Positions 38,128-62,184 are shown, counted from the stretch's first letter. The stretch is DNA of 64,000 bases from Kiritimatiellia bacterium (GCA_027858965.1 JAQIBS010000137.1:62001-126000); one strand, 5' to 3'. Made by a program: numbers and translations. Notes: generated by a model not told the origin, from the letters alone.

Positions 38128-41100
38128 ATGAAAGGTTTTTCCGGTATTTGGTTATCCTCTCTTCTGGTTTTCTGTTTTGTTGTGTGTGCGTGTGCGGCGC
38201 CTCAGCCTATTAAGGATGAGTATACGGTTCGTCGGTGGGGTGTTGAAGAGGGATTGCCTGAAGGAATCGTTACGGCGGTTGATATATTTGACGATGGATT
38301 TATCTGGTTGACCACGCCACGCAATGTGGTCCGATTCGATGGTGCGGAATTCATCTCTCTTCCTCAGGAAGATTATCCCGATAAGAAACCCAGACGTTTT
38401 AACTGCATTATTAGTGACCGGAATGGCGATGTATGGGTCTCTGGCGAAGATGGTGTTATGCGGAATTCCGGAGCAGGCTGGGAGGTTGTTCCTCTAAAAG
38501 GAAACCCTGACTTCAGCAAAGAGGAGCTCTGGCAGGTCGAAACCCCTGATGGAAGACTTGAACAATTACCTCACCTTGAAATTTTCTGGGTAAAGGAGGC
38601 TCCCGATGGCACCATCTGGGTTGCTTCGAATGTAGGGATGTACAAGTTTGAAGATAGTTCCCTGAATCGGATCTGCCCGATTGGAAATGATGCCCCGGAA
38701 ATTTTCACATCAGCCTGCATGGATGAGAGGGGGCAGATCTGGTTGGTTGGAGATGGAAGGCTCTTTGCTATTAATGGAGAGCATTATGGACCGGCTGATT
38801 TTCCCTGTGGAAAGGGGCGTGAAGCGCTTTTTCAGTTGTTTTCAGGAGTTGGCGGATCGCTTTGGGGAAAACGGGTGGATGGAAAACTTTTCCGGTGTAA
38901 CGATGAAGAGTGGTATGAGTCAGTTCCCCCTGGTTTGCGACATATGGCCTTACTTGAACAGGAAGATGGAGAGGTCTGGTTTGGAGCTGTTGAAGGAATA
39001 TATAGGTCGAATTTAAAGAACCTGCAGATGCTGGTGAGAGCAGGCATTGATAAGGCGCATGATGTACGTTCTCTTAAATCCGCGGCGGATGGTTCGCTGT
39101 GGGCTGGCAGTGGTAATGGTCTGTTTCAGCTTAAGTCGCGAACAGTGCGGATGTTTGCAGTGAAGGAGTTAAACGTACAGCAGACGGTTACGGCCCTTCG
39201 GCCCGATGAAAAAGGCGGTTTCTGGGTTGGCGTGGAAGGACATGGCATACTGGTCGGATCAGCTGGAGAGTTCAGTTCCTTTAAAACAGACCCGCCGGTA
39301 TTGAACGGTGCAACCGTTTCTGCAATGTGTATGAAACGAGATAAAACGTTCTGGGTGGGTACACGCGATGACCATCTCTGGAAGGTATCTCCGGACGGAA
39401 AAGTGGATCAGGTCAGATCAATGGGAGGATATGCCTCTAGAGGAATCACGGCATTGGCTGAATCTACAGATGGACGCTTATGGGTCGGCACACGGGAAGG
39501 AATATTGAAACGTGATGAGCAGAACCGTCTGAACCCGGTAGCTGGCCCGGATGATACAATTCTGGCATTGCATGCCGATTCTCGTAATGGAATGTGGGCT
39601 GCAACCCAGTGCACCGGTCTGTGGCATATCGATAGTGACGGCAATCACAGGTGCATCCGGCAGTCGGATGGATTACCCTCTGATACAATTCGTGCTTTGC
39701 TTCAGGATCCGGAAGGCCGGATGTGGCTTGCGACCTCCGAGGGCGTGGTTCTTTTTGTCGATTGTGACCCCCGTGTTCCTCAATCTCTCTCTTGTTCAGT
39801 ATCTTTTACGCAAGAGCAGGGCTTGCCCTTTGATGATATATGGCAGATGCTTGATGATGGTAAGGGGCATTTATGGCTGGGCACGCGACAGAGGATCATG
39901 CGGGTGGCAAAGGCTGATATGATGGATGTGGCTGAAGGCCGGAAGAAGGTTTTAACTGTCCGCACCTTTGGTCGGGATGACGGACTGGATTCCGGGCTTG
40001 TGGGGGGTGACCACAGCGGGCCTCTGGCTGTGCAGACGCAGGATGGTCTGCTCTGGTTTGCAACACACTCAGGTTTAGCAATGATAAATCCCGGGCAGTT
40101 GAAAGAGGATAACTTTGCATTGCAGGTATATATTGAAGAGATATCAGCCCGACAGCGTGGAGGTGAAACCTTTGTGCGAAAACTGACTGAACAGAGTCAG
40201 CCGGGAGATGGCTTTTATGAGGAGAGCTCACCTGAGATTGACCTGCCTGCAGGAAGCCGCAATATTACATTCAGTTATACGGCCCCTGTTTTTGTGAATC
40301 CAGAGCAGGTCTTGTTCAGGACGCGGCTTGATGGATATGAAAACGAGTGGTCTACACCATCAACCGGACGGCGGATAAGTTTTTCACGTCTGCCTCCGGG
40401 ACGCTATCGGTTTCGTGTAATGGTCTCCCGTCCCTCTAGCGGCTGGATTGAAAGCGGGAAGGGGGTGCAGTTCATTGTCTGCCCTTTCTTCTGGCAGACT
40501 CTCTGGTTTACGACACTATTAACGCTTTTACTGTTGGTTGCTGTAGGAGTCACGGTGGGTCTGCTTGTAAAAAGGCGTGAAATCCTGAAGCTGGAGAAGG
40601 AGAGGAGAGAGACTCGGGAACGCGAACGGGAGATGGAACGTAAAAGGGCTGTCGAACGCGAACGTGTTCGTATTGCGCGAGATATACATGATGATCTGGG
40701 TGCCGGCTTAACCCAGATGGCTCTGCAATCTGAACTGGCGCAGGGCGAACAAGGTAATCCCGCACAAATGAAATTACGCCTCGACCAGATTTTCAAGGCG
40801 GCCTGTTCCCTGGCTCAGAGCCTGAATGAGATTGTCTGGGCAGTTAATCCGAAGAACGATACGCTGGACAGCATGCTTTCCTATCTGGAAAATTATACGG
40901 ATGAATATTTGCGTGCATCTGGCTTGAGGTTCCGTCCGGATCTGCCTATTGAATGCCCTGACCTGCAGGTTTCATCCATGATTCGGCACCACATCTTCTG
41001 CGCAATAAGAGAGGCGCTTCATAACGCCGTCAAGTATGCGGGGTCATGTGAAGTGCGGCTTAAAGTGGAGGTCACAAAAACTTTCCTGAAAATTGAACTG

Positions 41101-41268
41101 AGTGATACCGGATGCGGATTTGATCCGGAATCGATTCCTTCCAGGGCCGGCAGGCATAACGGAATCATCAATATGCAGAATCGTATGAAGGAGATAGATG
41201 GGAGTTTTGATTTAAACACCGAATCCGGTCGAGGAACACGCTTGAGATTTCAGGTTAGCCTGATGTGA
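38128..41268 (+). CDS. Sensor histidine kinase with Reg_prop beta-propeller, Y_Y_Y domain, HisKA_3 and HATPase
   Basis: Repeated propeller motifs (GLPEGIVTAVDIFDDGFIWLTTPRNVVRFDG); TRLDGYENEWSTPSTGRRISFSRLPPGRYRFRV; RVRIARDIHDDLGAGLTQMALQSE; ELSDTGCGFDPESI. ORF opens at 38113; MKGFSG at 38128 is likely. Confidence 0.93.
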   Translation: MKGFSGIWLSSLLVFCFVVCACAAPQPIKDEYTVRRWGVEEGLPEGIVTAVDIFDDGFIWLTTPRNVVRFDGAEFISLPQEDYPDKKPRRFNCIISDRNGDVWVSGEDGVMRNSGAGWEVVPLKGNPDFSKEELWQVETPDGRLEQLPHLEIFWVKEAPDGTIWVASNVGMYKFEDSSLNRICPIGNDAPEIFTSACMDERGQIWLVGDGRLFAINGEHYGPADFPCGKGREALFQLFSGVGGSLWGKRVDGKLFRCNDEEWYESVPPGLRHMALLEQEDGEVWFGAVEGIYRSNLKNLQMLVRAGIDKAHDVRSLKSAADGSLWAGSGNGLFQLKSRTVRMFAVKELNVQQTVTALRPDEKGGFWVGVEGHGILVGSAGEFSSFKTDPPVLNGATVSAMCMKRDKTFWVGTRDDHLWKVSPDGKVDQVRSMGGYASRGITALAESTDGRLWVGTREGILKRDEQNRLNPVAGPDDTILALHADSRNGMWAATQCTGLWHIDSDGNHRCIRQSDGLPSDTIRALLQDPEGRMWLATSEGVVLFVDCDPRVPQSLSCSVSFTQEQGLPFDDIWQMLDDGKGHLWLGTRQRIMRVAKADMMDVAEGRKKVLTVRTFGRDDGLDSGLVGGDHSGPLAVQTQDGLLWFATHSGLAMINPGQLKEDNFALQVYIEEISARQRGGETFVRKLTEQSQPGDGFYEESSPEIDLPAGSRNITFSYTAPVFVNPEQVLFRTRLDGYENEWSTPSTGRRISFSRLPPGRYRFRVMVSRPSSGWIESGKGVQFIVCPFFWQTLWFTTLLTLLLLVAVGVTVGLLVKRREILKLEKERRETREREREMERKRAVERERVRIARDIHDDLGAGLTQMALQSELAQGEQGNPAQMKLRLDQIFKAACSLAQSLNEIVWAVNPKNDTLDSMLSYLENYTDEYLRASGLRFRPDLPIECPDLQVSSMIRHHIFCAIREALHNAVKYAGSCEVRLKVEVTKTFLKIELSDTGCGFDPESIPSRAGRHNGIINMQNRMKEIDGSFDLNTESGRGTRLRFQVSLM

Positions 41269-41270
41269 TC

Positions 41271-41309
41271 GGCGCGAAGCGCTCTGGAGTGCGGTGACCC
41301 CGTCACCGC
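41271..41309. repeat. Micro-hairpin plus constant flank (copy B, opposite orientation)
   Basis: Reverse complement reads GCGGTGAC-GGG-GTCACCGC then ACTCCAGAGCGCTTCGCGC. Confidence 0.8.
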
Positions 41310-41496
41310 TCAAGGTCAAGCCGACCTTGTCACTATTAATAGCGACATGACAATTTTATAGTATTTCGTTAATATTAAAAGCTGTAAAGAGAGAGAATAC
41401 TTCTTGTACATGAATTGGCACGACGCATTGAAAAAGGAGAAGAAAGGACAGCCATCTTCCCCATGCTCTATGCTCTCTGCCCTATGCGGAAACAAA

Positions 41497-41827
41497 ATGA
41501 TACCTGTTGCAATAGTTGAAGATGATGAGCGTGTAAGGAAGAGTCTGACGGAGATTCTTGCCAGCGATAACCAGCAGTATAGCGCGAAAGATTGTGCAGA
41601 CCTTCCGTCAGCCGGAGACAAATCAGCCTGATAAAGGAGCGGAAGTTTCGTTAGGTCCTCGGGAGCGTGAAATTCTGGATCTATTGACAAAAGGACTTGC
41701 CTATAAAGAGATCGCCGATAAGCTGGATATCAGTCGTAATACTGTAATGACTCTGGTTCAGCGTATTTACCAGAAACTGCACGTTCACTCACGTGGCGAG
41801 GCAGTTGCCAAGTATCTGGGACTGTGA
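41497..41827 (+). pseudogene. NarL/LuxR-type response regulator with most of the receiver domain deleted
   Basis: IPVAIVEDDERVRKSLTEILASDNQ, then a frame change and ITSSIARKIVQTFRQPE...VSLGPREREILDLLTKGLAYKEIADKLDISRNTVMTLVQRIYQKLHVHSRGEAVAKYLGL; paralog of the intact ORF at 45039. Confidence 0.85.
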
Positions 41828-41948
41828 GGATTTATATTCACAATACATAGACGCATTATTATGTTCAGAGGTCAGAGTGTGAAAGGATATGGCTGAAACC
41901 TAAACACCTTCAGCCTAACCACCTAAACGCCTATATTAGTTCAAAACC

Positions 41949-43625
41949 ATGAAAATTAACCGAAGAGATTTTGTGAAATCCAGCGCCGCTTTGGCAGTGG
42001 CCGGTGTGCCGTCGCTTTTTGCTGCAACGGCTCCAGTTGAGTTGCCTGCGGAGCACATAGCATTACTGAGAGCCCGCAAACGCCGTATTGTTATTCAGCA
42101 TGATGTTTACTGGGTGCATTTGAAATACTTGAAGATGCATCCAGATGGAAATGTGCCCTTCGGTCCTTTCCGGGATGCTGTGTTTTCCTATGTGGATGAA
42201 CCGGGTTCCCAGATTGATGCGATCTGGTGGGATATCGCCGGCAATGCCGTGGGCAGTGTATATCCGAGCAAGGTTTTTCAACCTGAGATTCATCCTCTGG
42301 CAAAGCGTTGGCATGAAGAGGGTACAGACTGGGTTCTGGAACTGATGAAAGAGACGCGTAAACGCAAGCTTGAGCTTTTCTGGAATCATCGTATCAGTGA
42401 GGTTGACGTTCTGCCCGAAGGGGGACATGCGAAGGTGCCGAGCACATTGAAACTGGAACACCCGGATTGGACCATGCCGGTTTCCTGGTGGAATCATCCA
42501 ATGTGGAACCTGGCGTCAGAGGGGCTCCGTCGCCATAAGGTCGAGATACTGCGTGAGCTGATAAAGCGCTTTGACCTTGATGGCATCCAGATCGATTTTG
42601 CACGTCATATTCCCTGTCTGCCTGCGGGGCGGCAGTGGGAGTTGCGTAGACATGTTACTGAGTTCATGCGTATGGTGCGGATGATGTCTCTTGAGGAGGC
42701 GAAGCGCAGGGGGCGGCCCGTATTGCTGGCAGCCCGTGTTCCGCAGACCATGGAAGGATGCCATATCGACGGTTTTGACCTGAAGAGATGGGCAGAGCTC
42801 CACCTAGTGGATGTGCTGACTCTGGGAACACGCACTATGGATGTTGATGTGGAAGGTATTCGTGCAGCAGTGGGCAGCGATGTCCAGCTGCAACCCTGCT
42901 TTGATGATCATCATGCAACCGATGGCTACCGTTATGCACCGATTGAATTTCTGCGTGGTGTGTTCTCCAATCATTTTCAGCGTGGTGCTGACAGCGTGGT
43001 TACCTTCAACTGGGCAATGGGCACACCTGAGGTTGCGGAGAAGGTCGGAGGCGAAATAGCCCCGTTAACACATCAGCAGGCTTTCAGGTCAGTCGGCGAT
43101 CCACGCACAATGGCTGGTAAGGACAAGTTCTTTGCAGTTGAACGTCGGGGTGGTTATCCCTGGGCGGATGGTTTCTTTAACCGCAATGATACCGCGCCGC
43201 TGCCATTGAAACTCAGCAGAAAAGGGGAGTCAGCTAAGCTTGTGATGCACATCAGTGATGCTCCTGGAACGGGTGGCTCAGCGGCAACCCTGACTTTGCG
43301 ATGTATTCTGTACGGAGCAGGTAAGAGTGATATGTTTGATGTCCGTTTCAACAGTGCGACGCTTTCAATCTCTGTGTGCGACGCGGAGTGGAAAGACTCT
43401 CAGATATTCTCGCCCAAACCACAGCCACCATCTGGAGGTAAAGGTAACTATAAGATTAATCCTCGACAGAAGCTGCTGCGGATTGATTGTGAGGTTCCCT
43501 CTTCAATATGGCGACAAGGAGAGAATACGGTTGAGATCAGCATCAGTTCCGGGGATGAAAAGCTCTCTTCTATGGTTCAGCTTGAAAAGGTAGAAGCCCA
43601 TCTTGATTATCAGGAGCGATTATGA
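41949..43625 (+). CDS. Tat-exported GHL10/GH10-like putative glycoside hydrolase (paralog 3)
   Basis: 558 aa; NRRDFVKSSAALAVAGVPSLFAA leader; RFDLDGIQIDFARH aligns with paralogs 1 and 2. Confidence 0.75.
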   Translation: MKINRRDFVKSSAALAVAGVPSLFAATAPVELPAEHIALLRARKRRIVIQHDVYWVHLKYLKMHPDGNVPFGPFRDAVFSYVDEPGSQIDAIWWDIAGNAVGSVYPSKVFQPEIHPLAKRWHEEGTDWVLELMKETRKRKLELFWNHRISEVDVLPEGGHAKVPSTLKLEHPDWTMPVSWWNHPMWNLASEGLRRHKVEILRELIKRFDLDGIQIDFARHIPCLPAGRQWELRRHVTEFMRMVRMMSLEEAKRRGRPVLLAARVPQTMEGCHIDGFDLKRWAELHLVDVLTLGTRTMDVDVEGIRAAVGSDVQLQPCFDDHHATDGYRYAPIEFLRGVFSNHFQRGADSVVTFNWAMGTPEVAEKVGGEIAPLTHQQAFRSVGDPRTMAGKDKFFAVERRGGYPWADGFFNRNDTAPLPLKLSRKGESAKLVMHISDAPGTGGSAATLTLRCILYGAGKSDMFDVRFNSATLSISVCDAEWKDSQIFSPKPQPPSGGKGNYKINPRQKLLRIDCEVPSSIWRQGENTVEISISSGDEKLSSMVQLEKVEAHLDYQERL

Positions 43626-43643
43626 AATTGTGGTGGAAAGCAT

Positions 43644-43698
43644 GTAGGGCGGTCCTCCGGGCCGCCTATGATCAGACGGCCCGGAGGACCGTCCTACG
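43644..43698. repeat. Long inverted repeat (about 22-bp arms)
   Basis: TGTAGGGCGGTCCTCCGGGCCG-CCTATGATCAGA-CGGCCCGGAGGACCGTCCTACG. Confidence 0.85.
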
Positions 43699-43789
43699 AT
43701 TTTGTTTAGGTCTCTGCAAACTCAGTGATGCGAGATTTGGTAAATGTGTCTTAAAACCCGAATCCCGTATTCCGCATCTCGTATTCAGC

Positions 43790-45007
43790 ATGTTTGCCCT
43801 CGCCCTTTTTGCAACAGTCGCTACAGCTGAGAACCACGAGCTCCGGGTGCGGACAACTCACAGCAAACTCGGGGTAAGCGGCTTTGTCCGGGGGGGCAAT
43901 ACCGGGCACTTCGGTGGAGTGGATATTAATTTAAAGAACGCCGGGTCGGTCGATAATTTTGCCCGTAAGGGTTATATACGCATGGATATCAGTGATGTTG
44001 ATTTCACGATCCGGTCAGCATATCTTGATATGGTGGTCTGCATGACCGATATAATATATAAAAATATCGATCAGACTATAAATGTGTATGGTCTCACAGA
44101 TGAATCGCTCGATAACTGGAACCCGGCTGAAACAACCTGGGACAACGCACCGGCTAATGATATATCATCTTCCAGCGGTGTTGTGACAAACAGTGCTGTT
44201 TTTCTGGGAGAGTTTACGGTTGCCTACGAGGATGCCGGAACCCCGAAAAGATTTACCAGTGCCGCGCTGATTGACTTTCTGAATGCAGATACAAATGGCA
44301 AGGTGACCTTTATTTTGTGTAGACCTGATTCCATAGAGACGTTCAGCGGCTGGAACCTTCTGTTAGCCGGAGATGCACATGAAACCTATGCGCCTCCAAA
44401 GCTTACTCTAACTTCGGAGATCACCACGCTTTCCGGAACCGGTGGAGTCAGTGGTCAGGTATCAGCTGATGATACCGGAGCATTCGGGATTGCCGGAGGC
44501 TGGCATCTGAAAAACGATGCGGATTTGCTGACTAAATTTACGCGTAAGGGATATATACGTTTTGATATTTCAAGTAACGATGCAGCGGCAACCAACGCCT
44601 CTTTGAACGTAATCCTACTAGTCGTAGACGACCGACATCATTATTACGGCAATAATCAAACTCTCTTTGTCTATGGTTTGACAGATGAGACTCTGGACAT
44701 CTGGGATCCATCGACAACTACCTGGAGTAACGCTCCAGGCAATAATACCAACTCTGCTGACCGTGTTGACACAGAAACAACCACTCATCTGGGTGAGATC
44801 ACAGTGATACCTACTGATGCAGAGGGCACGGTTAAAACACTGTCAGGAACAGCTCTGGATAATTTCCTTAATGCGGACACGAATGGCAAGGTGACCTTTA
44901 TTATCAGCAGAGAACAGAATAAAGGATATAAAAGAGATATAAAGATCGTCGGTGACCGGGATGTGAGATACTCTCCTCCATCACTAATGATGGCACCTGG
45001 AAAATGA
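43790..45007 (+). CDS. Secreted DNRLRE/CBM96-type protein, two repeats
   Basis: Repeats YIRMDISDVDFTIRSAYLDMVV...LTDESLDNWNPAETTWDNAPAND and YIRFDISSNDAAATNASLNVILL...LTDETLDIWDPSTTTWSNAPGNN. ORF opens at 43622, but MFALALFATVATA at 43790 gives a signal peptide and excludes the hairpin. Confidence 0.75.
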   Translation: MFALALFATVATAENHELRVRTTHSKLGVSGFVRGGNTGHFGGVDINLKNAGSVDNFARKGYIRMDISDVDFTIRSAYLDMVVCMTDIIYKNIDQTINVYGLTDESLDNWNPAETTWDNAPANDISSSSGVVTNSAVFLGEFTVAYEDAGTPKRFTSAALIDFLNADTNGKVTFILCRPDSIETFSGWNLLLAGDAHETYAPPKLTLTSEITTLSGTGGVSGQVSADDTGAFGIAGGWHLKNDADLLTKFTRKGYIRFDISSNDAAATNASLNVILLVVDDRHHYYGNNQTLFVYGLTDETLDIWDPSTTTWSNAPGNNTNSADRVDTETTTHLGEITVIPTDAEGTVKTLSGTALDNFLNADTNGKVTFIISREQNKGYKRDIKIVGDRDVRYSPPSLMMAPGK

Positions 45008-45038
45008 GTTTAGAAGTTCAAGCAGGCAAAAATCATAA

Positions 45039-45692
45039 ATGAAATATACCGAGAAAATAACGATACCCGTTGCAATTGTTGAAGATGACGAGCGTGTTCT
45101 AAAGAGCCTGACCGAAATCCTTGCAAATGATAAGCAATGCATATGCGTCGGGGCCTATTCCTCGGCAGAGGAGGCGATGGTGAGCATTCCGAAGACCCCG
45201 CCGAATGTCGCCCTGGTAGATGTTAACCTGCCGGGTATGGATGGAGTCTCTCTGGTTCAGCAGCTGGCGCCGAAGATGCCGAAAACGCAGTTTATGATAC
45301 TCTCCGTTTTATCTGACACAGAGACAATCTTCAAGGCGCTGGCGGCCGGGGCGCATGGCTATCTTCTCAAACCGGTACGGGCGAAACAGTTGCTGGAGGC
45401 GGTTCATGATGTCTACAAAGGTGGCTCGCCGATTACCAGCAGCATCGCCCGTAAAATTGTGAAATCTTTCAGAGAACCGCAGGAAAAACCGGTTGATGAT
45501 GCAAAAGAGGTATCGTTGGGACCCCGCGAGAAAGAGGTACTCGACCTGTTGACAAAAGGTTTGGCGTATAAAGAGATCGCCGACAAACTCGGCATCAGCC
45601 GCAATACCGTCATGACGGTCGTGCAGCGTATCTATCAAAAGCTGCATGTTCACTCCCGGGGTGAAGCGGTCGCCAAGTTCCATGGACTCTAA
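45039..45692 (+). CDS. NarL/LuxR-type response regulator
   Basis: IPVAIVEDDERVLKSLTEIL; VALVDVNLPGMDGVSLV; LLKPVRAKQLLEAV; C-terminal LuxR HTH. Confidence 0.96.
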   Translation: MKYTEKITIPVAIVEDDERVLKSLTEILANDKQCICVGAYSSAEEAMVSIPKTPPNVALVDVNLPGMDGVSLVQQLAPKMPKTQFMILSVLSDTETIFKALAAGAHGYLLKPVRAKQLLEAVHDVYKGGSPITSSIARKIVKSFREPQEKPVDDAKEVSLGPREKEVLDLLTKGLAYKEIADKLGISRNTVMTVVQRIYQKLHVHSRGEAVAKFHGL

Positions 45693-47196: not shown

Positions 47197-49725
47197 ATGA
47201 CTAAAACAAGAGTATTTATAACTACTTTTCTGGTTACACTTATTTGCCCATATGGGCAGATGGCGGCTGCCGGGGATTTGGACTGGCCGGAACCATCAAC
47301 ATTCAATCGGCCGGGTGCCTACTGGTGGTGGATGGGCAGTGCCGTTGACAAAGAGAACATCACCTGGAACCTGGAGGCGATGCGTAAGGCGGGAATGGGA
47401 GGAGGAACCATTGTTCCGATCTACGGGGTTAAGGGATACGAGAAAAAGTATATCCAGCATCTTTCGCCTGAGTTTGTAGCGATGGTGAGCCATGCCTCTA
47501 AAGAAGCGGAACGTCTGGGGATGTGGGTGGATATGACCACCGGCACCGGCTGGCCCTTCGGTGGGCCTATGGTGACCGACGAATATTGTGACGCAACAGT
47601 TGATTTCAAGGAGGGTAAGATAACTCAGAAATTTTCAGGAAGAAATGTGAAACGGGCGGCACCCGGAAACAGCGGTAAAGCCATTAATCCCTTCTCGGCG
47701 GAGGCAATGGCCTTTTACCTGAGTCACTTTGATATCCCCTTCAGCGGTAATGATGTGGTTATGCCGCGTGCGATGTATCATGATTCATTTGAATTCAAAG
47801 GTAATTGGTGCAGAGAGCTTCCCGAGGAATTCAGCAGACGTCGTGGATACGATCTGACAAAATATCTACCGGAGTTATTTGGCCGGAGAGGTGATGCTGA
47901 TACCGTTGCCCGAATCAAGTCGGATTATCGCCAGACACTGTCGGACCTGCATCTCGCCTATTTGAAAGAATGGGTTAAGTGGTCTGAATCCAAGGGATGT
48001 ACCACGCGCAATCAAGCGCATGGGTCGCCCTCGAACCTGCTTGACCTTTATGCGGCAAGTGGAATTCCTGAGACTGAGATATTCGGAGCAAGCGTCTTCA
48101 ATATCCCTGGCATACGTCGAGACAAGAGCAATGTTGATGGCAGAAACTACCCCCGCCCCCTGATCAATCGCATGGCATCTTCAGCGGCTCATGTCGCCGC
48201 TAAACCCCTTGTCGCGGCGGAGGCCTGCACATGGATCCGCAACCATTTCCGCACGGCTCTATCTCAGGCTAAACCGGAGATAGATCAGCTCTTTCTGAAC
48301 GGCATCAATCACATCTTTTTTCATGGCACTTGCTACAGCCCTAAAGATGCTCCGTGGCCTGGATGGCTTTTTTATGCATCATTTGAATATAATCCGCGCA
48401 ACGCCATCTGGCGTGACGCGCCGCTGCTGAATGCCTATATAACGCGTTGTCAGTCCATTCTTCAGTCGGGTAGCCCGGATAATGATGTGGCTCTGTACTG
48501 GCCGGTCTACGATATCTGGCATAATGAAAACGGCATGCAGCAGATGCTGACTGTCCATCATCCTGAATGGCTGACCAAGTCCTCTTGTGGAAAGGTCGCA
48601 ACCCAACTTAAAGCAGATGGTTACGGTTTTGACTTTATCTCCGACCGTCAGCTGATTGCCAGCCAAAGCGAAGACTATAAGGCGATTGTGGTTCCAAAGA
48701 CCGCTCATATGCCGCTGGATACATTAAAGGAAATTTTTAAAATCTCTGCTAGCGGTAGAGCGGTGTTTTTTCTGGATAATCTGCCTGAGGACGTGCCGGG
48801 TTTCAATAAACTGGAAGAACGACGTGTCGCATTGAAACATCTGCTGAAGGGGCAGGATAAGCTGGTGATAAAGCGAGAGAAGCTGAAGCAGGCATTGAAT
48901 CGAACGGCTGTATCACGCGAGCCGATGATTGATCAGGGGGTGGACTTCATTCGTCGACGGCATGAGGAGGGTTATCACTATTTTGTCGCCAATATGGGGG
49001 CAATTCCGGTAAGCCGCTGGATAACTTTGGGGGTTCCCTTTGCCAGCGCGGTGATTATGGATCCTCGTTCAGCGGAAAGCGGAGTCGCGATTCAACGCGC
49101 AAATGCCATCTATCTTCAGCTTAATCCGGGAGAGACACGCATCATTCGCACTTTCGACAAACGAGTTGTTGCCGGTGCGCCGTGGTCGGCAATTGTTAAG
49201 GATGGGGAGCCGCTTGTTGTAAAGGGTCTATGGACCATTAGTTTTGTCGATGGCGGTCCGGTTCTGCCTGCGCAAATAACAACAGCTACTCTTGCTTCCT
49301 GGACAGAAATCGGTGATAAAGAGGCTAGGCGCTTCGCCGGAACCGGCCGCTATTCAATCGAAATCAATATCCCGGAAGGGGCGGATGACTGGGAGATTGA
49401 TCTGGGGGATGTTCGCGAAAGCGCACGTGTCTATATCAACGGAAAGAGTGCCGCATCGCTGTACAGTGTTCCCTATAGCGCACCTGTCGGTAAATATCTT
49501 AATCCTGGGAGGAATCTGCTGGAGATTGAAGTGACGAACCTCTCCGCAAACCGGATACGTGATCTGGACTTTCGTCAGGTGAACTGGAAGATATTCCATG
49601 AGATCAATTTAGTGGATCACAACTACCGTAAATTTGATGCATCGAAATGGCCACTGGTGCCGTCTGGACTTCTGGGACCGGTCACCTTAACTCCCATGAA
49701 GATGGCTGAATTCCAAAAAAAGTAA
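47197..49725 (+). CDS. GH106-like alpha-L-rhamnosidase
   Basis: FNRPGAYWWWMGSAVDKENITWNLEAMRKAGMGGGTIVPIYGVKGYEKKYIQHLSPEF; ERLGMWVDMTTGTGWPFGGP. Confidence 0.85.
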   Translation: MTKTRVFITTFLVTLICPYGQMAAAGDLDWPEPSTFNRPGAYWWWMGSAVDKENITWNLEAMRKAGMGGGTIVPIYGVKGYEKKYIQHLSPEFVAMVSHASKEAERLGMWVDMTTGTGWPFGGPMVTDEYCDATVDFKEGKITQKFSGRNVKRAAPGNSGKAINPFSAEAMAFYLSHFDIPFSGNDVVMPRAMYHDSFEFKGNWCRELPEEFSRRRGYDLTKYLPELFGRRGDADTVARIKSDYRQTLSDLHLAYLKEWVKWSESKGCTTRNQAHGSPSNLLDLYAASGIPETEIFGASVFNIPGIRRDKSNVDGRNYPRPLINRMASSAAHVAAKPLVAAEACTWIRNHFRTALSQAKPEIDQLFLNGINHIFFHGTCYSPKDAPWPGWLFYASFEYNPRNAIWRDAPLLNAYITRCQSILQSGSPDNDVALYWPVYDIWHNENGMQQMLTVHHPEWLTKSSCGKVATQLKADGYGFDFISDRQLIASQSEDYKAIVVPKTAHMPLDTLKEIFKISASGRAVFFLDNLPEDVPGFNKLEERRVALKHLLKGQDKLVIKREKLKQALNRTAVSREPMIDQGVDFIRRRHEEGYHYFVANMGAIPVSRWITLGVPFASAVIMDPRSAESGVAIQRANAIYLQLNPGETRIIRTFDKRVVAGAPWSAIVKDGEPLVVKGLWTISFVDGGPVLPAQITTATLASWTEIGDKEARRFAGTGRYSIEINIPEGADDWEIDLGDVRESARVYINGKSAASLYSVPYSAPVGKYLNPGRNLLEIEVTNLSANRIRDLDFRQVNWKIFHEINLVDHNYRKFDASKWPLVPSGLLGPVTLTPMKMAEFQKK

Positions 49726-49808: not shown

Positions 49809-50354
49809 ATGGATGATGATAGTGAAAAAGTATTTCATAAAGAGCTGACTGCTGCGCAGAACGACCTGTTCCTTTATCTGTGTGCCTTGACAGGTAAGCC
49901 GGATGCGGCTCGTGACGTTCTGCAGGAGACAAACCTTGTGCTTTGTCGGGAGATGGATCGCTATGATCCGGAGCGCTATGATCCGGAGCGCCCTTTTCTT
50001 GTCTGGGCCCGGACGGTGGCCTACTATCAGGTGTTGACTTGGCGCAAAAAGCAGGTGCGGGACCGGCTGGTGTTTGATGATGGCCTTCTGGAGGATGTTG
50101 TCTCAACCCTGAAAGAGAATCCCTCGTATTCACATACCCAGTTGGATGCGTTGGAGCAGTGTCTGTCGAAACTGCCTGAACGGATGCGAAAACTGGTTGA
50201 GGCACGCTATAAGGAGAGACAGGCCGTAAATGAGCTGGCAGCCATCTCGGGTCGGGCTGCCAACGCGATATCCGCAAGCCTCTATCGGATCCGTCAGCTT
50301 CTGGGAGCGTGTATTGAAGAAAACCTGGGAGGTAATCTGTATGGGAATCGCTGA
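49809..50354 (+). CDS. ECF-type sigma-70 family sigma factor
   Basis: AAQNDLFLYLCALTGKPDAARDVLQETNLVLCREMDRYDPERYDPERPFLVWARTVAYYQVLTWRKKQ; QCLSKLPERMRKLVEARYKERQAVNELAAISGRAANAISASLYRIRQLL. ORF opens at 49755; MDDDSEKVF at 49809 is likely. Confidence 0.88.
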   Translation: MDDDSEKVFHKELTAAQNDLFLYLCALTGKPDAARDVLQETNLVLCREMDRYDPERYDPERPFLVWARTVAYYQVLTWRKKQVRDRLVFDDGLLEDVVSTLKENPSYSHTQLDALEQCLSKLPERMRKLVEARYKERQAVNELAAISGRAANAISASLYRIRQLLGACIEENLGGNLYGNR

Positions 50355-52905
50355 ACAGGAGACCCGTTTTACCTCACTGGTGATGGCTGTGGTTGAAGAG
50401 ACGGCAACAGCGGCAGATCTTGTCGAATTCCATGCCCTTCTGCATGAACATTCCGAATTTATATTCCAGTATCTGGAGCAGATGCGCATTCACGGAATGA
50501 TGTGTCGTTATGCTGAGGATGCACGTTCCGTTGGTGCTGAAAACAGGAAGACGCGGAAACGCGCGTTCTTGGATGGGTCATGGTGGAGAAGAATAGCGGC
50601 GGTTCTGGTGGCTTCCGCAGTGGTGGCTCTGGCCATGCACTTCAACCCTTTTCTGGAAAAAGCGGAACCCCTTGCTGTGGAAATTGAGAATGGTGATAAG
50701 GTTATGAGTGTGGCTGAACCTCAATCGTCAACTCTGATGTCAGAGAGCATACGTATTGATTTGTCAGATAATAAAGATGCCGATTCTTTGTCTCTTTCAT
50801 CTTCAGAGCAGGAGGAAAAGAGTGTTCCGGCTGCAGATATTCAAACGGATACAGACAACTCTGTGACACAAAGTGTGCCTCAGGTCAAGGAGCTTTCGGG
50901 GGAGCCGGTCTCTGTTGCTCTGGCGGGAGACTCCACGGTTACTGATGATTTTGGATGGGGAGGCGCTCTCAGTGATTTTCTTCCGGCAGGTGTGAGCGTC
51001 AATAACAGAGCTATCGGTGGGTACAGCACTAAGAGTTTCATCGATCAGGGGTATTGGGACTCCACCGTTGACCTTGATTGCGATTACGTTTTTATTCAGT
51101 TCGGACATAACGACCAGAAGCTTAACGATACAATCCGGGGAACTTATCCCGCTGAAAGCCGGCCATTAGGGATAAACGATCGTTCTTACGACCTGTTTAG
51201 GGCAAATCTAACGAAGATGGTGGATGATGTGCGCGCGGAGGGTGGTGTGCCCGTTCTGATCACACCGTTGGCCCGGAGGGGACGCGTTGCCGATATCAAC
51301 GGAGTTCTGCAGTTTCAGAATGACGTGGTGGCAACGGACAACGCTGATCTCCTGGGCAACTGCTACTCACTGCTTGACTATGCCGATGCGGCTAAAGCTG
51401 TGGCAGAGCTGAAAAGAGTTCCTCTTATCGATTTGAACCAGTTGAGTCTGGATCTCTATAACCGGATGCTTGCTGATGGGGAGGATATCACAGCATTAGG
51501 ACCGGATGGCGATAACACTCACCTCAACACCATTGGAGCAATGGCTATAGCCAAATTGATAGCCGATGCAATCCCTGAAGTACTTCCTGACAGCCCACTA
51601 TGGCCACCACCGCCGGTTATTGATAATTATTTGCTGATTTTTACAAATGAGCTTGATTCGGCCTCGGACTACGGTTCACTCACTGTATTACCTAATGCTA
51701 CAGCGGATAACCCCTGCGGAAACACCTCCGACCTAGATGAAAAACCAAAAGCAGTTCAGGTTCAAACGCTGATTACAAGTGCGGGTGCTGCGAGTGTCAG
51801 TTTTATGTCGGCGGCTGTTTGCAACCCCTCTATACTGCATGGCATAGGCACCATTAACTGGTCAACCGAGATCAGAAAAGCTCCTGACGGTTACAATGAC
51901 ACGCCTCTCTGCCCGGCCCTGTGGCAGAGAGGCAAATTATATGTATATGTCGGAGGTAACATCATCGGTGGCGATTTGGCCCCGAATGTTTTTAGGGAAA
52001 CTACCGAAACCTATTCACAGGTTAAACTAGAGGGAGCTGAAGCCTGTCATTTTGAGAGTTATGATCTGAATTCCGCTTCTGTACAACCGCCCCTGACAAA
52101 CAGTGGCGATCACCCGGATTTCTCCAACAATGGAGACTCCATCACTTTTGGATATATTGCCAGCGCGGGAACCGGCAGCACAGGCTATGAGCGCCGAACA
52201 GCAATCAGAAAGAGCCGGATAACCGTAGCTAAATACTCTCCTCTGCGCATAACCACCCATTATGGCCATGGAGCGGATGCGGGAACCGACGAGTACAACA
52301 AAACAACCAATCTGGGTGACAGTGTCGTTCTGACTGCGCGTTGGAGCCCTAACACCAATCCTGCTTTCAACCGCCATGAGCAGATTGTCTTGCGCTTTGA
52401 TCTATCCGACATCGCCGACTTCACAATTATTGATGCCTCTTTGAATTTGGTCAAATACCGCGATCACGAGACGGGTGTTCAAATGGATCTTTATGGCATC
52501 ATCGATGGCAAACCGGGTGATGCACTGGAGGACTGGTCCGAAGGAACGCTGACTTATGCCAATGCGCCGTGGCTGAATCAAGACAACTCTTTTGACAACA
52601 CAGACCTGAAAACGGAGTCGATAGTTAAACTTGACGAAAATTTCCCCACTGTGGGAGATTCAGGAGATACAATGTCCTCCCAAACTATGGATCTGCTTGA
52701 TTTTATCAGGAGTGACAAAAACCAGCTGGTCACATTTATTCTGACGCGAGAAGATATGATCGAGTCGGCGCAGGAAAAGTTTGCGTCAAAAGAGACAACG
52801 CAATTAGAGGATGGAGGCGGAACAGGGCGTGCGGGAGATTTCGCCCCGAGTCTGATTCTCAATCTGAAATTCTCACCTGACGGCACAATTTTCATTATAA
52901 AGTAA
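50341..52905 (+). CDS. Anti-sigma/FecR-like N-terminus with TM segment fused to CE12-like SGNH esterase and DNRLRE/CBM96 domain
   Basis: MGIAEQETRFTSLVMAVVEETATAADLVEFHALLHEHSEF; TM RRIAAVLVASAVVALAMHF; SVALAGDSTVTDDFGWGGALSDFL...VFIQFGHNDQK...GDNTHLNTIGAMAIAKLIADAI; CBM96-like LRFDLSDIADFTIIDASLNLVKYRD; ends DGTIFIIK. ATG overlaps the sigma gene. Confidence 0.8.
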   Translation: MGIAEQETRFTSLVMAVVEETATAADLVEFHALLHEHSEFIFQYLEQMRIHGMMCRYAEDARSVGAENRKTRKRAFLDGSWWRRIAAVLVASAVVALAMHFNPFLEKAEPLAVEIENGDKVMSVAEPQSSTLMSESIRIDLSDNKDADSLSLSSSEQEEKSVPAADIQTDTDNSVTQSVPQVKELSGEPVSVALAGDSTVTDDFGWGGALSDFLPAGVSVNNRAIGGYSTKSFIDQGYWDSTVDLDCDYVFIQFGHNDQKLNDTIRGTYPAESRPLGINDRSYDLFRANLTKMVDDVRAEGGVPVLITPLARRGRVADINGVLQFQNDVVATDNADLLGNCYSLLDYADAAKAVAELKRVPLIDLNQLSLDLYNRMLADGEDITALGPDGDNTHLNTIGAMAIAKLIADAIPEVLPDSPLWPPPPVIDNYLLIFTNELDSASDYGSLTVLPNATADNPCGNTSDLDEKPKAVQVQTLITSAGAASVSFMSAAVCNPSILHGIGTINWSTEIRKAPDGYNDTPLCPALWQRGKLYVYVGGNIIGGDLAPNVFRETTETYSQVKLEGAEACHFESYDLNSASVQPPLTNSGDHPDFSNNGDSITFGYIASAGTGSTGYERRTAIRKSRITVAKYSPLRITTHYGHGADAGTDEYNKTTNLGDSVVLTARWSPNTNPAFNRHEQIVLRFDLSDIADFTIIDASLNLVKYRDHETGVQMDLYGIIDGKPGDALEDWSEGTLTYANAPWLNQDNSFDNTDLKTESIVKLDENFPTVGDSGDTMSSQTMDLLDFIRSDKNQLVTFILTREDMIESAQEKFASKETTQLEDGGGTGRAGDFAPSLILNLKFSPDGTIFIIK

Positions 52906-52927: not shown

Positions 52928-54250
52928 ATGAAACAAACAATAAGAACAAGCTGGATTGCGACAGTATTACTGACCCTCTCAGCATATGGTGGCACAGCGC
53001 TAACCTTCACTAACGAACTGGATTATGCCGCAGATTATGGTCCGATTACCGTACTGCCTGGAGCAACTGCATCAAATCCCAGCTTTGGTACCTCCGATAT
53101 AGGTGGAACCCCGAATGAGATTCAAATTCGAACGATAATCACAAGTGCTGGTGTCGCATATTTCAGTTTTGAGTCGGCCGCCACCTGCGACCCTGTAAAT
53201 TTCGGTGGAATCAGCACGGTTGACTGGTCAACCGATATAAAGAAGGATGGTTCTTATGCAGGTGATGTCATTCTTGTCCCTGCTCTCTGGCAGAATGAAA
53301 CTCTTTACATGTATATCGGTAATGAAGTCGTTGGCGGTGAAAGCACTGATTTTTTCAGAAACACGGCCACAACCTATTTAACCACAGCGATAATGGACGC
53401 CAAATCCTCCGATTTCGAGAAATATGATTTAACGAATGTTTTCTCGACACATAGTGGTGATAATCCTGATTTTTCCGACAAAGGCTCAGCCATTACCTTA
53501 GGATACATAACTTCAGTAGGGACAGGCGGCAGCGCAGGAGTTGACAGACGTTCTAAGATTACAAATGGAAAAATAACTATCAATGATTTCTATCCGCTCA
53601 ATATCTCAACTGGCTTTGGCAATGGGGCGGACGCTCAGACTGAGGAATATGTCAAAGATGCTAATTATGGATCTTCCGTCTCATTGGGTGCAAGGTGGGC
53701 TCCAACCACCCCTCGTCAATCGCATATTGTCTTGCGCTTTGATCTGTCCCAGGCCAATAAAGCCACCATTACCAATGCGTCGCTGAATCTGATTAAGTAT
53801 CGTGATGATTCTCAAGGGCACATGGATCTCTATGGCGTTATCAATGGCCAACCAGGCGATGCATTGCAAGACTGGTCCGAAGAAACCTTGACATATAACA
53901 ATGCACCGTGGTTAGAGCAGGATACATCAGTGCCATATGACGACACGGATCTGATTACTTCATCAGTGGTTGAAATTGACGAAGCTTTTCCGACGACGGG
54001 AGTCGAAGGCGATATTAAATCGTCTCAATCTGAGGATCTGCTAACCTTTATCCAAAGCGATACAAACGGACTTGTTACCTTTATTTTAACTCGAGAAGAT
54101 ACGATCGAGAACGGCGTAGAAGTGTTCGCATCAAAAGAGGCGATGGGATTGGAGAGCGACGCAGGAACCGATCCTGAGGGCACCTTTGCACCAAAACTTG
54201 TTCTCGGCCTGAAGTTCGTCGTCAAAGGAACGATAATTTTAATTGAGTGA
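52928..54250 (+). CDS. Secreted DNRLRE/CBM96-type protein, paralog of the C-terminal half of the preceding gene
   Basis: LTFTNELDYAADYGPITVLPGATASNP parallels LIFTNELDSASDYGSLTVLPNATADNP; ends KGTIILIE. Confidence 0.8.
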   Translation: MKQTIRTSWIATVLLTLSAYGGTALTFTNELDYAADYGPITVLPGATASNPSFGTSDIGGTPNEIQIRTIITSAGVAYFSFESAATCDPVNFGGISTVDWSTDIKKDGSYAGDVILVPALWQNETLYMYIGNEVVGGESTDFFRNTATTYLTTAIMDAKSSDFEKYDLTNVFSTHSGDNPDFSDKGSAITLGYITSVGTGGSAGVDRRSKITNGKITINDFYPLNISTGFGNGADAQTEEYVKDANYGSSVSLGARWAPTTPRQSHIVLRFDLSQANKATITNASLNLIKYRDDSQGHMDLYGVINGQPGDALQDWSEETLTYNNAPWLEQDTSVPYDDTDLITSSVVEIDEAFPTTGVEGDIKSSQSEDLLTFIQSDTNGLVTFILTREDTIENGVEVFASKEAMGLESDAGTDPEGTFAPKLVLGLKFVVKGTIILIE

Positions 54251-57123: not shown

Positions 57124-58725
57124 TCACAAAATACTGATAATAGTACCTGTTTCCCTTACAGACACTACGGCAAACCAGCCGATATAGCCATCAGCAGCAA
57201 TCGGTGCCAACGGAGCAGAGGTGCTGACCGCCTCTGAAAGACCGTCTGTTGTGCCGACCACAGACCACGTGCCGGTGGCGTTACGACGGTAAAGCCGGAT
57301 TTCATCTGAGGACAACACAGAACGACGGTCGTGCCGAATACGCAGGCTCACTGTTCCGAATGAGGTGGTCATGGGGAGCTTCCATACACCCAGAACCTGA
57401 TAGCCTGAATTTGAGGGAAGCCCTGCCGGTATATCTTCGCGATCAGTCGCGTAGAGTTCCCCGCGCAGGTAGTCAGTACCTGTGGTATCGGTGAATGAGA
57501 GATGGATGCTGTTCACCAAGTCGTTCTCTGCTTCATCAGGGCCATCTCCCTGGCCACGTTCGAGGGCAGAGGTGGCGCTGATATAGGCCCGTGGGTAACG
57601 TAAGCGCCCTTTGTTCACCGCATACCAGCCGTTCGTGCCTTCGGTGCCATTGGCAATTGAGTTTTCCGCCTTGTAAAAATCGGTCATATTCAGGTCGCGT
57701 GGTGTGCCCTCTCCGTCTGCGACGATAAGCCCGTTATTGTGAACATAGTTGGGAGCAGCGAGAGAAACGATATCAAAGTCACCCCATCCCTGCAGGAGGC
57801 CTATGCCCGCCGCTTCCCCGCGAATCACCAGAGTCGATTGATTGTACATCTTGACCGTGCCGCTGCGACACTGCATCTCTCCGCAGCCACTGGCTCCGAC
57901 CGTCAGGTGGGAGCCGTTCCCTAGTCCAGATCCGATTGACACTGTGCCGCCTGCGTTGGTATAAACCCCGCAAGCCCCGCTTTCAAGACCGATTGTCAGA
58001 AAACCGTATAATTTAAGCGTTCCACCCTCTTGAGAGACCATCCCGGTGCCGGACTCTCCAATCCGCAGATCGCCGGTGCCAGCTCCGCTACTATTTTCGT
58101 ACAGAGTCAGCGTGGTATTATCCAGATGAAACGAACCCTGCGTCCCTGCCCCGATGCCAATTCTAGCAATGCCAAAAACTGCAGCAGCACTGTCGGTCCA
58201 GGACACCGATCCACTGGCCCCGTTGGTAACACCAACCATTATTGAGCCCCACGTCACTGAGACTCCATTGCTCATGAGCATTGTGCCTTGAGCATCAGCG
58301 CTGTCATTACCGACCCGGATATCTCCGTTCCCGCCTGAACTGCTGCCGACCACGACTCTTCCGCCATCGACCAGTAACTTGCCACGTGCTTTGTCACCCA
58401 CATTCAAGTACGCTGAATTAGTCATGGCTCCCGCGAGTCGCACCGAGGCATAATAATCCTTGTCTGGCACAATCCCCTCGCCCAGGGCGATCCCGTTAAC
58501 GAGAACGGCCTCGCCAGTCTCGATACGTACAGGAGAGGACTCATACGTTCGCGTGATTCCAACGGAGGATCCCGCTGTCGGCAGTGATCCCCCGGTCCAG
58601 TTCGCAGGCGTGTGCCAATACTCATCCGCAGGAGGATCCACAAACCATATATCCGATGCGAACAGCGTCAGCGGCAGAATGAAGCTGATCAGGGTCAATA
58701 CGGTTATAAACAATTTATTTTTCAT
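57124..58725 (-). CDS. Secreted Gly-rich beta-helix/autotransporter-passenger-like protein
   Basis: 533 aa; repeated LRIGESGTGMVSQEGGTLKLYGFLTIG / LNVGDKARGKLLVDGGRVVVG motifs; ends ETGTIISIL. Confidence 0.65.
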   Translation of the reverse strand: MKNKLFITVLTLISFILPLTLFASDIWFVDPPADEYWHTPANWTGGSLPTAGSSVGITRTYESSPVRIETGEAVLVNGIALGEGIVPDKDYYASVRLAGAMTNSAYLNVGDKARGKLLVDGGRVVVGSSSGGNGDIRVGNDSADAQGTMLMSNGVSVTWGSIMVGVTNGASGSVSWTDSAAAVFGIARIGIGAGTQGSFHLDNTTLTLYENSSGAGTGDLRIGESGTGMVSQEGGTLKLYGFLTIGLESGACGVYTNAGGTVSIGSGLGNGSHLTVGASGCGEMQCRSGTVKMYNQSTLVIRGEAAGIGLLQGWGDFDIVSLAAPNYVHNNGLIVADGEGTPRDLNMTDFYKAENSIANGTEGTNGWYAVNKGRLRYPRAYISATSALERGQGDGPDEAENDLVNSIHLSFTDTTGTDYLRGELYATDREDIPAGLPSNSGYQVLGVWKLPMTTSFGTVSLRIRHDRRSVLSSDEIRLYRRNATGTWSVVGTTDGLSEAVSTSAPLAPIAADGYIGWFAVVSVRETGTIISIL

Positions 58726-60097: not shown

Positions 60098-60333
60098 CGT
60101 TACTCGCACAGCTTTTCAATGAATATCGATTGTCATCGCATATTGATCCACGTACGTTTGCTTACAACTCCGCTGCATTAGCAGCTATTCTCTCAGTTCC
60201 TCCTTCGTCAAGACTCCGGCGTGACATGTTGGTTCCGGCTCCGCTTGTTTAGTTTGTCACTACTTTTAGCGACATGACAGGATGTATCTATTCTGTTAAA
60301 TTGGAAACAATCAACAGGAAAAAATTATGTGTC

Positions 60334-62184
60334 ATGAGAATTATTAATTGTTTAGAAAAAAGTTATTCGTGTCAAAGGGCTGCCGGTTTTTTGGTTGCCT
60401 TGCTGCTGGCGACAACTGCGGTTGCAGAGAGTGTTTCGATGTACACCACAAACGGAACTGACGGAGTCACCGGTTATGTTAGCGGACCCAATACCGGTTC
60501 CTTCGGAGGCACCTATATGAATCTGAAAAACACGGGTCTGCCGGTCGATTCCTATGACCGCAAAGGCTATATCCGCATGGATATCTCCAGTAAGAGTTTT
60601 ACTGCCAGAACAGCCTATCTGGATATTATTTTAAGCCTGACAGATAGTCTCTACGGCAGCAATCCTCAGACAGTCAATATCTATGGAATGACCGATGAAA
60701 CTCTGGACAGCTGGTCCACTAACACAACGACGTGGGCAAACGCTCCAGGTAACGATGCTGCCTCACCCTCAAATGTTGATCCTGCAAAGACAGTCTTGCT
60801 TGGAACGATTACGATTTCCAGTGATGCCGTGGGCAAGGTGAAACGATTAGCCAGCGCGGCGCTGGTTGACTTCCTCAATGCGGATACGAATGGCAAAGTG
60901 ACCTTTATCCTCTGCCGACCCTATTCAACATATAGCAATAGAAATCTTGGTTTTTCCGGAGATACCCATGCCACCTACCTTCCACCTAAACTGACTATCA
61001 GTTCAGACATTACGAGCCTCACAGGAGCTGATGGAACCGATGGCTATGTGATGGGCAATAATACCGGGTATTTTAATAATGGTTCTGTCACTCTCAAGAA
61101 TGTGGATGTTCCGACTAGTTCGTACACCCGCAAAGGCTATACGCGTATGGATATCTCCAGTATCGATTTCGCTGTGGGTGCGGCATATCTCAAATTTGTG
61201 ATTACGGCTGTCGATACGTACAACTCCACCCCCTATGCCGGTATAAACCAGGTGCTTAAAGTATATGGCCTGACTGATGAGAGTCAGGACGACTGGGATC
61301 CTTCCTCAACGACTTGGAATAACGCGCCCGGAAACGACACTGCCTCTTGTTACGCGGGAGACACGAACAAGACTGTTTATCTTGGAGATTTGACTGTTCC
61401 ATACAACTCTGCGGTCGGTGATACAGTTTCCTTCTCATCTGGTGACCTTGCTGATTTTCTCAATGCCGATTCCAACGGCAAGGTGACCTTCATTATCGGG
61501 CGATACAATTCTGCTGCCCAGCAAGGCGACGAGAACCTTATTTTTGCAGGTGGCGCGAATACGACCTATGACCCTCCAAAGCTGGAAGCTTATCCAACTA
61601 TCAGCGGAACAATTCAGGTCGGTGACGATATGGGCTATTTCCCCTCAGGTGGCTGGCATGTAAAGAATGCCGGGATTGAAAGCGCTGTTACCCGTAAGGG
61701 ATATGTGCGTTTTGGTCTGACCGATGTTGATTACACCATCGGCAGTGCGCAGCTTGATATTACGCTGGCGCTTGTGGATGAAATTCATAACTACTACAAC
61801 AATGATCAGGTTATCAAAGTTTACGGCTTGACGGATCAGAGTCTCGATAACTGGAATTACTCAACAACAACCTGGAGCACCGCTCCCGGAAATGACACCA
61901 ACTCTACCTATGCGGCGGATCTGACCAAAGCTGTCTATCTGGGTGATATCACAGTTACTCCATCTGACGTGGCTGGCAATGTGAAGTCGCTTAAGAATCA
62001 GAACCTTGTCAGTTTCCTGAATTCAGATACGAACGGTCTGGTTACCTTTATATTCGGCCGTTATACCGGTTTTAACGATGGTGGAGGAGAGAATCTTCTG
62101 TTCGCGGGTGAGGTGAGCACCGTTTACGCAGGACCTTCCCTGACATTTGATCGGCCCAAGGGAACGGTTATACTTATTCAGTAA
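60334..62184 (+). CDS. Secreted protein with three DNRLRE/CBM96-type repeats
   Basis: YIRMDISSKSFTARTAYLDIIL, YTRMDISSIDFAVGAAYLKFVI, YVRFGLTDVDYTIGSAQLDITL units; ends KGTVILIQ. MRIINCLEKS at 60334 is likely the start. Confidence 0.85.
   Translation: MRIINCLEKSYSCQRAAGFLVALLLATTAVAESVSMYTTNGTDGVTGYVSGPNTGSFGGTYMNLKNTGLPVDSYDRKGYIRMDISSKSFTARTAYLDIILSLTDSLYGSNPQTVNIYGMTDETLDSWSTNTTTWANAPGNDAASPSNVDPAKTVLLGTITISSDAVGKVKRLASAALVDFLNADTNGKVTFILCRPYSTYSNRNLGFSGDTHATYLPPKLTISSDITSLTGADGTDGYVMGNNTGYFNNGSVTLKNVDVPTSSYTRKGYTRMDISSIDFAVGAAYLKFVITAVDTYNSTPYAGINQVLKVYGLTDESQDDWDPSSTTWNNAPGNDTASCYAGDTNKTVYLGDLTVPYNSAVGDTVSFSSGDLADFLNADSNGKVTFIIGRYNSAAQQGDENLIFAGGANTTYDPPKLEAYPTISGTIQVGDDMGYFPSGGWHVKNAGIESAVTRKGYVRFGLTDVDYTIGSAQLDITLALVDEIHNYYNNDQVIKVYGLTDQSLDNWNYSTTTWSTAPGNDTNSTYAADLTKAVYLGDITVTPSDVAGNVKSLKNQNLVSFLNSDTNGLVTFIFGRYTGFNDGGGENLLFAGEVSTVYAGPSLTFDRPKGTVILIQ

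Follow-up and report, generated by a model that had tools for sequence, protein, structure and literature searches.

The locus described here lies in a stretch of 64,000 nucleotides from a Kiritimatiellia bacterium (GCA_027858965.1, JAQIBS010000137.1:62001-126000; hereafter, the window), on a 129-kb contig of a draft genome of 5.9 Mb in 256 contigs. A sigma factor gene overlaps there with a gene whose product joins a short N-terminal domain and a transmembrane (TM) helix to an esterase and a carbohydrate-binding domain, which raises the question of whether the two form a sigma/anti-sigma pair and, if so, whether the large ectodomain is the sensor of that pair. The features that bear on this question are the following:

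43622..45007 (+): CBM96/DNRLRE protein with two domain copies
47197..49725 (+): GH106 alpha-L-rhamnosidase, upstream of the sigma gene
49809..50354 (+): ECF-type sigma factor ORF, 181 aa, TIGR02989 (Sig-70_gvs1)
50341..52905 (+): membrane anti-sigma-like protein with an enzyme/CBM ectodomain, 854 aa
50341..50550 (+): three-helix cytoplasmic domain, residues 1-70, candidate anti-sigma domain (AlphaFold2 model, 33-member alignment, zf-HC2 matches)
50581..50643 (+): transmembrane helix, residues 81-101 (WWRRIAAVLVASAVVALAMHF)
50644..50910 (+): S/E/D-rich low-complexity linker, residues 102-190 (89 residues), in the position of FecR in most relatives
50914..51570 (+): CE12-like SGNH esterase domain, residues 192-410
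51631..52260 (+): domain X, about 210 aa, residues 431-640, uncharacterised
52273..52800 (+): DNRLRE/CBM96-like domain, residues 645-820
52882..52905 (+): C-terminal tail GTIFIIK and stop codon
52928..54250 (+): secreted 440-aa protein with signal peptide, X, DNRLRE and the tail GTIILIE
60274..62184 (+): CBM96/DNRLRE protein with three domain copies and the tail GTVILIQ

The sigma ORF starts with the ATG at 49809, with CCGGAG a short way upstream, and its stop codon ends at 50354. The product matches NCBIfam TIGR02989 (Sig-70_gvs1) with an E-value of 1.9e-43 and 148.2 bits, above the curated cut-off of 124.55, and Pfam Sigma70_r2 with an E-value of 2.5e-6; at an E-value of 1e-20 the family is sparse in the order, being found in 8 of 76 genomes. 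Sigma region 2 contains a 15-bp in-frame tandem duplication (49959-49988, RYDPE-RYDPE) that is absent in three aligned relatives. The 14-bp overlap between this ORF and its partner (50341-50354), reported in an earlier note on this DNA, is genuine, the partner having a good ribosome-binding site of its own (GGGAGG, 8 bp upstream of the ATG at 50341). The length of 891 aa given there, however, needs an ATG at 50230 that lacks support; because this longer form would begin within the sigma gene and position 50341 has its own ribosome-binding site, we take the protein to be 854 aa long, with its stop codon ending at 52905.

Most of the domain architecture proposed in the earlier note could be recovered. 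There is one TM segment with a basic stretch before it, followed by the low-complexity linker, which is acidic, and by a CE12-like SGNH domain with intact motifs (GDST196, GHND255 and DNTHLN391). This domain matches Pfam Lipase_GDSL_2 over residues 196-400 (E 1.3e-14), whereas its match to NCBIfam PaeY is far under the cut-off, and residues 192-410 combine the GDS, GxND and DxxH motifs with rhamnogalacturonan acetylesterases as the nearest solved structures (3c1u and 1deo, E about 2e-5); deacetylation of pectic substrates is a putative activity. The DNRLRE/CBM96-like domain is likewise present, being just above the NCBIfam DNRLRE cut-off (34.4 bits against 34) and below that of Pfam CBM96 when scored alone (21.3 bits, cut-off 26; 26.1 bits with neighbours in frame); the adjacent 440-aa paralogue reaches 36 bits with the Pfam model. 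Missed in that note were domain X, the C-terminal tail GTIFIIK and the adjacent copy of residues 431-853. Domain X is rare (2 of 388 phylum genomes sampled), and an AlphaFold2 run on the 440-aa neighbour, which contains it, with two sequences as input gave no usable structure (pLDDT 34). The sole other X homologue found in the 388 genomes (L146, 1423-2172, minus strand), which is distant and from another family of the class, has a PEP-CTERM end in place of DNRLRE and the GT tail.

Whether residues 1-70 constitute an anti-sigma domain was addressed with an AlphaFold2 model of residues 1-121 built on an alignment of 33 homologues. The model consists of helices 3-18, 24-36 and 39-70, with pLDDT of 93-98 over residues 1-60, and in this respect the 854-aa protein has the N-terminal three-helix bundle of class I anti-sigma factors (ASDI). 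Class I domains are composed of such a bundle and a fourth helix (PMC7406223); after residue 70 the model has the TM helix alone, and no separate fourth anti-sigma helix is predicted. The anti-sigma zinc-finger model zf-HC2 matches 5 of the 33 N-domains, at best with an E-value of 3e-4. A Foldseek search of the PDB returned no significant fold match (best E 0.75), but MucA (8z6g, 6in7), RsiW (5wuq) and RslA (3hug) are within the top 50 matches, all with E > 1, and complexes of these anti-sigma factors supply 8 of the 50 best chains. The structural match on which the earlier note had made the pairing hinge is thus suggestive only: class I domains are among the best matches, none of them at a significant level.

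Scanning genome contigs gave 48 related sigma loci. For 45 of them, which belong to Kiritimatiellae, Verrucomicrobia and Planctomycetes, the gene neighbourhood was inspected, and in nearly all of these the next gene encodes a similar helical N-domain of about 60 aa followed by a TM helix, usually overlapping the sigma gene by 4 bp (ATGA). The N-domains share the motif L-D-G ... LR..P.AR..Y ... LHA.L, and the TM helix is located near residue 80-125. Five further sigma-linked pairs are present in the same genome, one of which (L009) is a natural fusion, a 522-aa ORF (L009 1405-2973, minus strand; G000:C29) in which the sigma factor is followed in frame by the anti-sigma-type N-domain, a TM helix and an extracytoplasmic part. 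By eye, this last part is FecR-like; Pfam gives no match. Fusion of two genes that are usually adjacent is a classical sign that their products interact, and the L009 fusion accordingly supports an interaction between sigma and N-domain. Since the N-domain trails the sigma factor across three phyla, and given also the zf-HC2 matches, the fold matches and the fusion, the assignment of the two genes as a sigma factor and a membrane anti-sigma factor is well supported; that the N-domain binds the sigma factor is something we infer from indirect signs such as the fusion.

Of the 'anti-sigma/FecR-like N-terminus' originally proposed, only the first half stands: the N-domain is anti-sigma-like, as in the sigma-linked relatives, and no FecR domain (PF04773) is detectable with Pfam in the 854-aa protein, so that membership in this family is ruled out and the label 'FecR-type' is wrong for it. 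The N-domain is nevertheless of the type that precedes FecR in most relatives, FecR being located behind the TM helix in 32 of the 46 scanned sigma-linked proteins; L007 is the one paralogue, of five in this genome, with a Pfam match to FecR. Other ectodomains in the 46 proteins include LamG (11), CBM96 (5), planctomycete cytochrome domains (4), F5/8 (3), VWA (2), PATR (2) and FGE-sulfatase (1), and a single protein, the one studied here, has a GDSL/CE12 ectodomain. Ectodomains are, as far as these sequences indicate, interchangeable behind a shared N-domain. Because they vary in this way, with FecR, LamG and the like common and GDSL/CE12 a single case, the layout is ordinary for the TIGR02989 sigma family and the esterase is its unusual part. 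The expectation that the layout would recur in other genomes was therefore borne out for the order of sigma factor, N-domain and TM helix, which is widespread, but not for the full architecture, which is found in no other protein among 145 genomes of the order; as it is seen once, conservation cannot back a sensor role of the esterase. Two of the loci, L079 and L081, are near-identical and are filed as Deltaproteobacteria UBA12015 and Akkermansiaceae, respectively, and the L079 contig looks misbinned. Our literature searches, whose coverage of Planctomycetes was incomplete, yielded no account of a TIGR02989 sigma/anti-sigma family in Kiritimatiellota.

What the ectodomain may be for is suggested by the gene that follows. 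Starting 22 bp after the anti-sigma gene, and probably in the same operon, it encodes the secreted 440-aa protein, which shares about 55% identity with anti-sigma residues 431-853. The adjacency of this copy strengthens the reading of the ectodomain as a putative sensor, which we consider reasonable on the analogy of Clostridium RsgI. A comparable arrangement is seen in two of the paralogous pairs, the FGE-sulfatase ectodomain of L007 being 51% identical to the next gene product and that of L008 showing a weaker likeness to its neighbour (PATR/LamG). Overall, of 44 loci, 11 encode a homologue of the ectodomain nearby; permuting the loci gives an expectation of 3.25, and none of 20,000 permutations reaches 11. 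In 5 of the 11 (the window, L007, L056, L060 and L085) the homologue is the directly adjacent downstream gene. The strength of this enrichment is moderate because two of the 11 homologues (L078 and L084) themselves resemble second anti-sigma proteins, and because the permutation, made across genomes, takes no account of genome-specific paralogues.

Two further DNRLRE proteins are encoded at 43622 and 60274, and this 18-kb stretch holds four of the nine CBM96 ORFs of the genome. The GH106 alpha-L-rhamnosidase upstream of the sigma gene makes the locus consistent with a rhamnogalacturonan-related function and, together with the closeness of the esterase to rhamnogalacturonan acetylesterase, points to a putative rhamnose-rich pectic substrate. 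A Reg_prop/Y_Y_Y histidine kinase and a LuxR response regulator flank the double-DNRLRE protein (38113-45692), possibly as a second surface-sensing system beside the sigma pair. Elsewhere in the window, an RCC1-repeat propeller is fused to a GH28 pectinase-like domain (19475-22417, minus strand), and a protein encoded at 10510-13449 (minus strand) matches the middle domain of the hydrazine synthase alpha-subunit (E 1e-21).

We therefore favour, with a probability of roughly 0.6, a PVC-type sigma/membrane anti-sigma pair with an RsgI-like sensor, in which the ectodomain copies the pair's own surface protein and the sigma factor is released by ligand-triggered proteolysis. The three-helix N-domain would keep the sigma factor inactive at the inner membrane, and the TM helix and the flexible acidic linker would lead to an ectodomain made up of the CE12-like acetylesterase and the copy of the neighbour (X, DNRLRE and GT tail). 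This ectodomain would meet the ligand or partner of the secreted neighbour, presumably an acetylated rhamnose-rich or pectic polysaccharide or a matrix bound by the neighbouring protein; engagement would trigger regulated proteolysis of the anti-sigma protein, and the freed sigma factor would then switch on the operon to which it belongs, the neighbouring copy with it, and probably further surface proteins as well. Binding of sigma, ligand, proteolysis and regulon are all putative steps of this scheme; an M50 site-2 protease is present in the genome. With its tail anchored in the outer membrane, the protein would bridge the whole envelope and possibly be anchored at both membranes; in principle, a linker of 89 residues could reach that far.

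Several known systems resemble parts of this scheme. In Clostridium thermocellum SigI/RsgI, as here, an anti-sigma N-domain and one TM helix carry a carbohydrate-binding or enzymatic ectodomain similar to one of the secreted enzymes that the system targets. RsgI6 has a GH10 ectodomain with 57% identity to Xyn10D, a secreted xylanase; RsgI3 (PA14) binds pectin, and its partner SigI3 controls a CE12 gene (PMC4711584). Signalling passes via RseP and ClpXP (PMC12203970). The sigma family and the N-domain are different, however, neither the RsgI N-terminal domain nor the SigI sigma factor appearing among the listed Pfam and NCBIfam matches, and Clostridium is Gram-positive. RsgI furthermore has an autocleaving periplasmic domain, none of which was detected in the 854-aa protein, whereas the ectodomain described here combines CE12, X and DNRLRE and ends in a tail, and the gene that it copies is directly adjacent. 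Dma of Bacteroides likewise combines an anti-sigma domain, a TM helix and a long disordered tether with a C-terminal part proposed to be at the outer membrane (PMC13088901), but it ends in a beta-barrel and has an ECF21 partner, whereas the protein studied here ends in an enzyme/CBM part with a short hydrophobic tail for which outer-membrane anchoring is hypothetical, and no beta-barrel family is among its Pfam matches. The PVC pairs of TIGR02989 and FecR-LamG proteins have the same sigma family, a similar N-domain and the same overlapping gene order; the 854-aa protein differs from these in the absence of FecR and in being the sole GDSL/CE12 case of the 46.

The C-termini deserve separate consideration. 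Both the anti-sigma protein and the 440-aa neighbour end in GT followed by four hydrophobic residues and one further residue. DNA-pattern scans of the genome for G-T-phi-phi-phi-phi-X-stop identified about 97 sites, against 2 for the reversed pattern; these tails have the form GT[LIVM][IL][LIM][LIVF][RQKH] and stand on otherwise unrelated, mostly large proteins. Inspection of 40 matches showed that the final seven residues are shared, whereas the domains ahead of them vary (PATR, LamG and others). Within the window, tails are found at 612-6464 (minus strand), 52882-52905, 54227-54250 and 60274-62184, with a variant at 57124-58725 (minus strand). A genome of the same genus has 45 tails against 1 reversed. 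The distribution in the class is patchy. A relaxed pattern, set after tailed anti-sigma proteins had been seen, clearly outnumbers its control in other Kiritimatiellae (26 against 3, 18 against 2 and 9 against 1) and shows no enrichment in two non-Kiritimatiellae control genomes. The tail is present on 7 of 10 Kiritimatiellae anti-sigma proteins (Fisher p 1e-6) and absent from 3, the seven amounting to three independent cases because five of them have one homologous C-terminal domain. This conserved domain of about 150 aa, common to the anti-sigma proteins of L010, L043, L045, L049 and L055, is also found in the secreted neighbour of the latter (L055, 3754-4437), for which Pfam gave no name.

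Like the signal of PEP-CTERM/exosortase systems, the GT tail is a short C-terminal element of many unrelated secreted proteins, but it lacks the PEP motif, the TM helix of about 20 residues and the basic cluster. TIGR02595 (PEP-CTERM) does not match the 854-aa and 440-aa proteins, no PEP-CTERM-like end is present among 86 ORFs of the window genome, and the model does match the distant homologue L146. Outside Kiritimatiellota, PEP-CTERM is enriched next to the sigma pairs, with 13 of the 140 genes that lie within 3 kb compared with 5 of the 174 more distant ones (p 0.025), and the adjacent ectodomain copies at L056, L060 and L085 end in PEP-CTERM-like tails. PEP-CTERM neighbours of TIGR02989 pairs in Planctomycetes and Verrucomicrobia were noted at L056, L060, L066, L067, L069, L072, L078, L081 and L086. 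Because PEP-CTERM holds the place of the tail in the X homologue and at related pairs, the GT tail may serve in the sorting or anchoring of proteins in some Kiritimatiellota. A bolder proposal, which we regard as doubtful, is that GT[LIV]-I-[LIM]-[LIV]-[RKQH] is a new Kiritimatiellota C-terminal signal replacing PEP-CTERM, and that the tailed anti-sigma protein spans the envelope as a tether, fixed by its TM helix to the inner membrane and by its tail to the cell surface, the outer part copying the surface protein under its control.

The same tails allow a different view of what is sensed. The ectodomain might watch the export or anchoring of GT-tailed surface proteins and not a sugar, competing with them for the sorting machinery so that crowding or failure would free the sigma factor. 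The X-DNRLRE part and C-terminal tail common to the anti-sigma protein and its neighbour, the 97 tails against 2 reversed in the genome, the PEP-CTERM sorting signal of the distant X homologue and the enrichment of PEP-CTERM beside related pairs outside Kiritimatiellota would all fit such a monitor. It would, however, leave the esterase without a role, 3 of the 10 Kiritimatiellae anti-sigma proteins have no tail and five of the seven tailed ones are not independent, and we consider this explanation unlikely, if still the strongest competitor of polysaccharide sensing. Less probable again is that the ectodomain sends no signal and simply works as a membrane-anchored enzyme that is incidentally regulated, the N-domain binding the sigma factor. 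The intact catalytic motifs and the GH106 rhamnosidase upstream would agree with an enzyme at work, but relatives with the same N-domain bear diverse and mostly non-enzymatic ectodomains (LamG, F5/8, VWA and PATR), and sensing fits this wide variation better than one catalytic task does.

Finally, the architecture could owe itself to chance adjacency or to an assembly chimera, as might be suspected from its occurrence in this genome alone among the 145 of the order and from the state of the assembly, a draft in 256 contigs. Yet the protein is encoded by a single ORF without interruption, the contig being 129 kb long; at 65% DNA identity, the gene and its neighbouring paralogue have no exact repeat of more than 20 bp in common, and the same layout recurs in other genomes and in the five paralogous pairs. 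The misassembly that the earlier note named as a possible refutation has left no sign and is unlikely, and we give this explanation very little weight.

On the preferred reading, the cell would sense its surroundings by means of an ectodomain that copies one of its surface proteins. If the tail is a sorting signal, it would single out the surface proteins of this group, where the literature searched gave no such system. If the preferred reading is true, the principle described in Clostridium, the sensing of a polysaccharide via a copy of the cell's own enzyme, would have a Gram-negative counterpart in the PVC group, built on a different sigma family and on interchangeable ectodomains. The ectodomain of each pair would then predict the stimulus of its regulon, which would be useful as most members of the group are uncultured.
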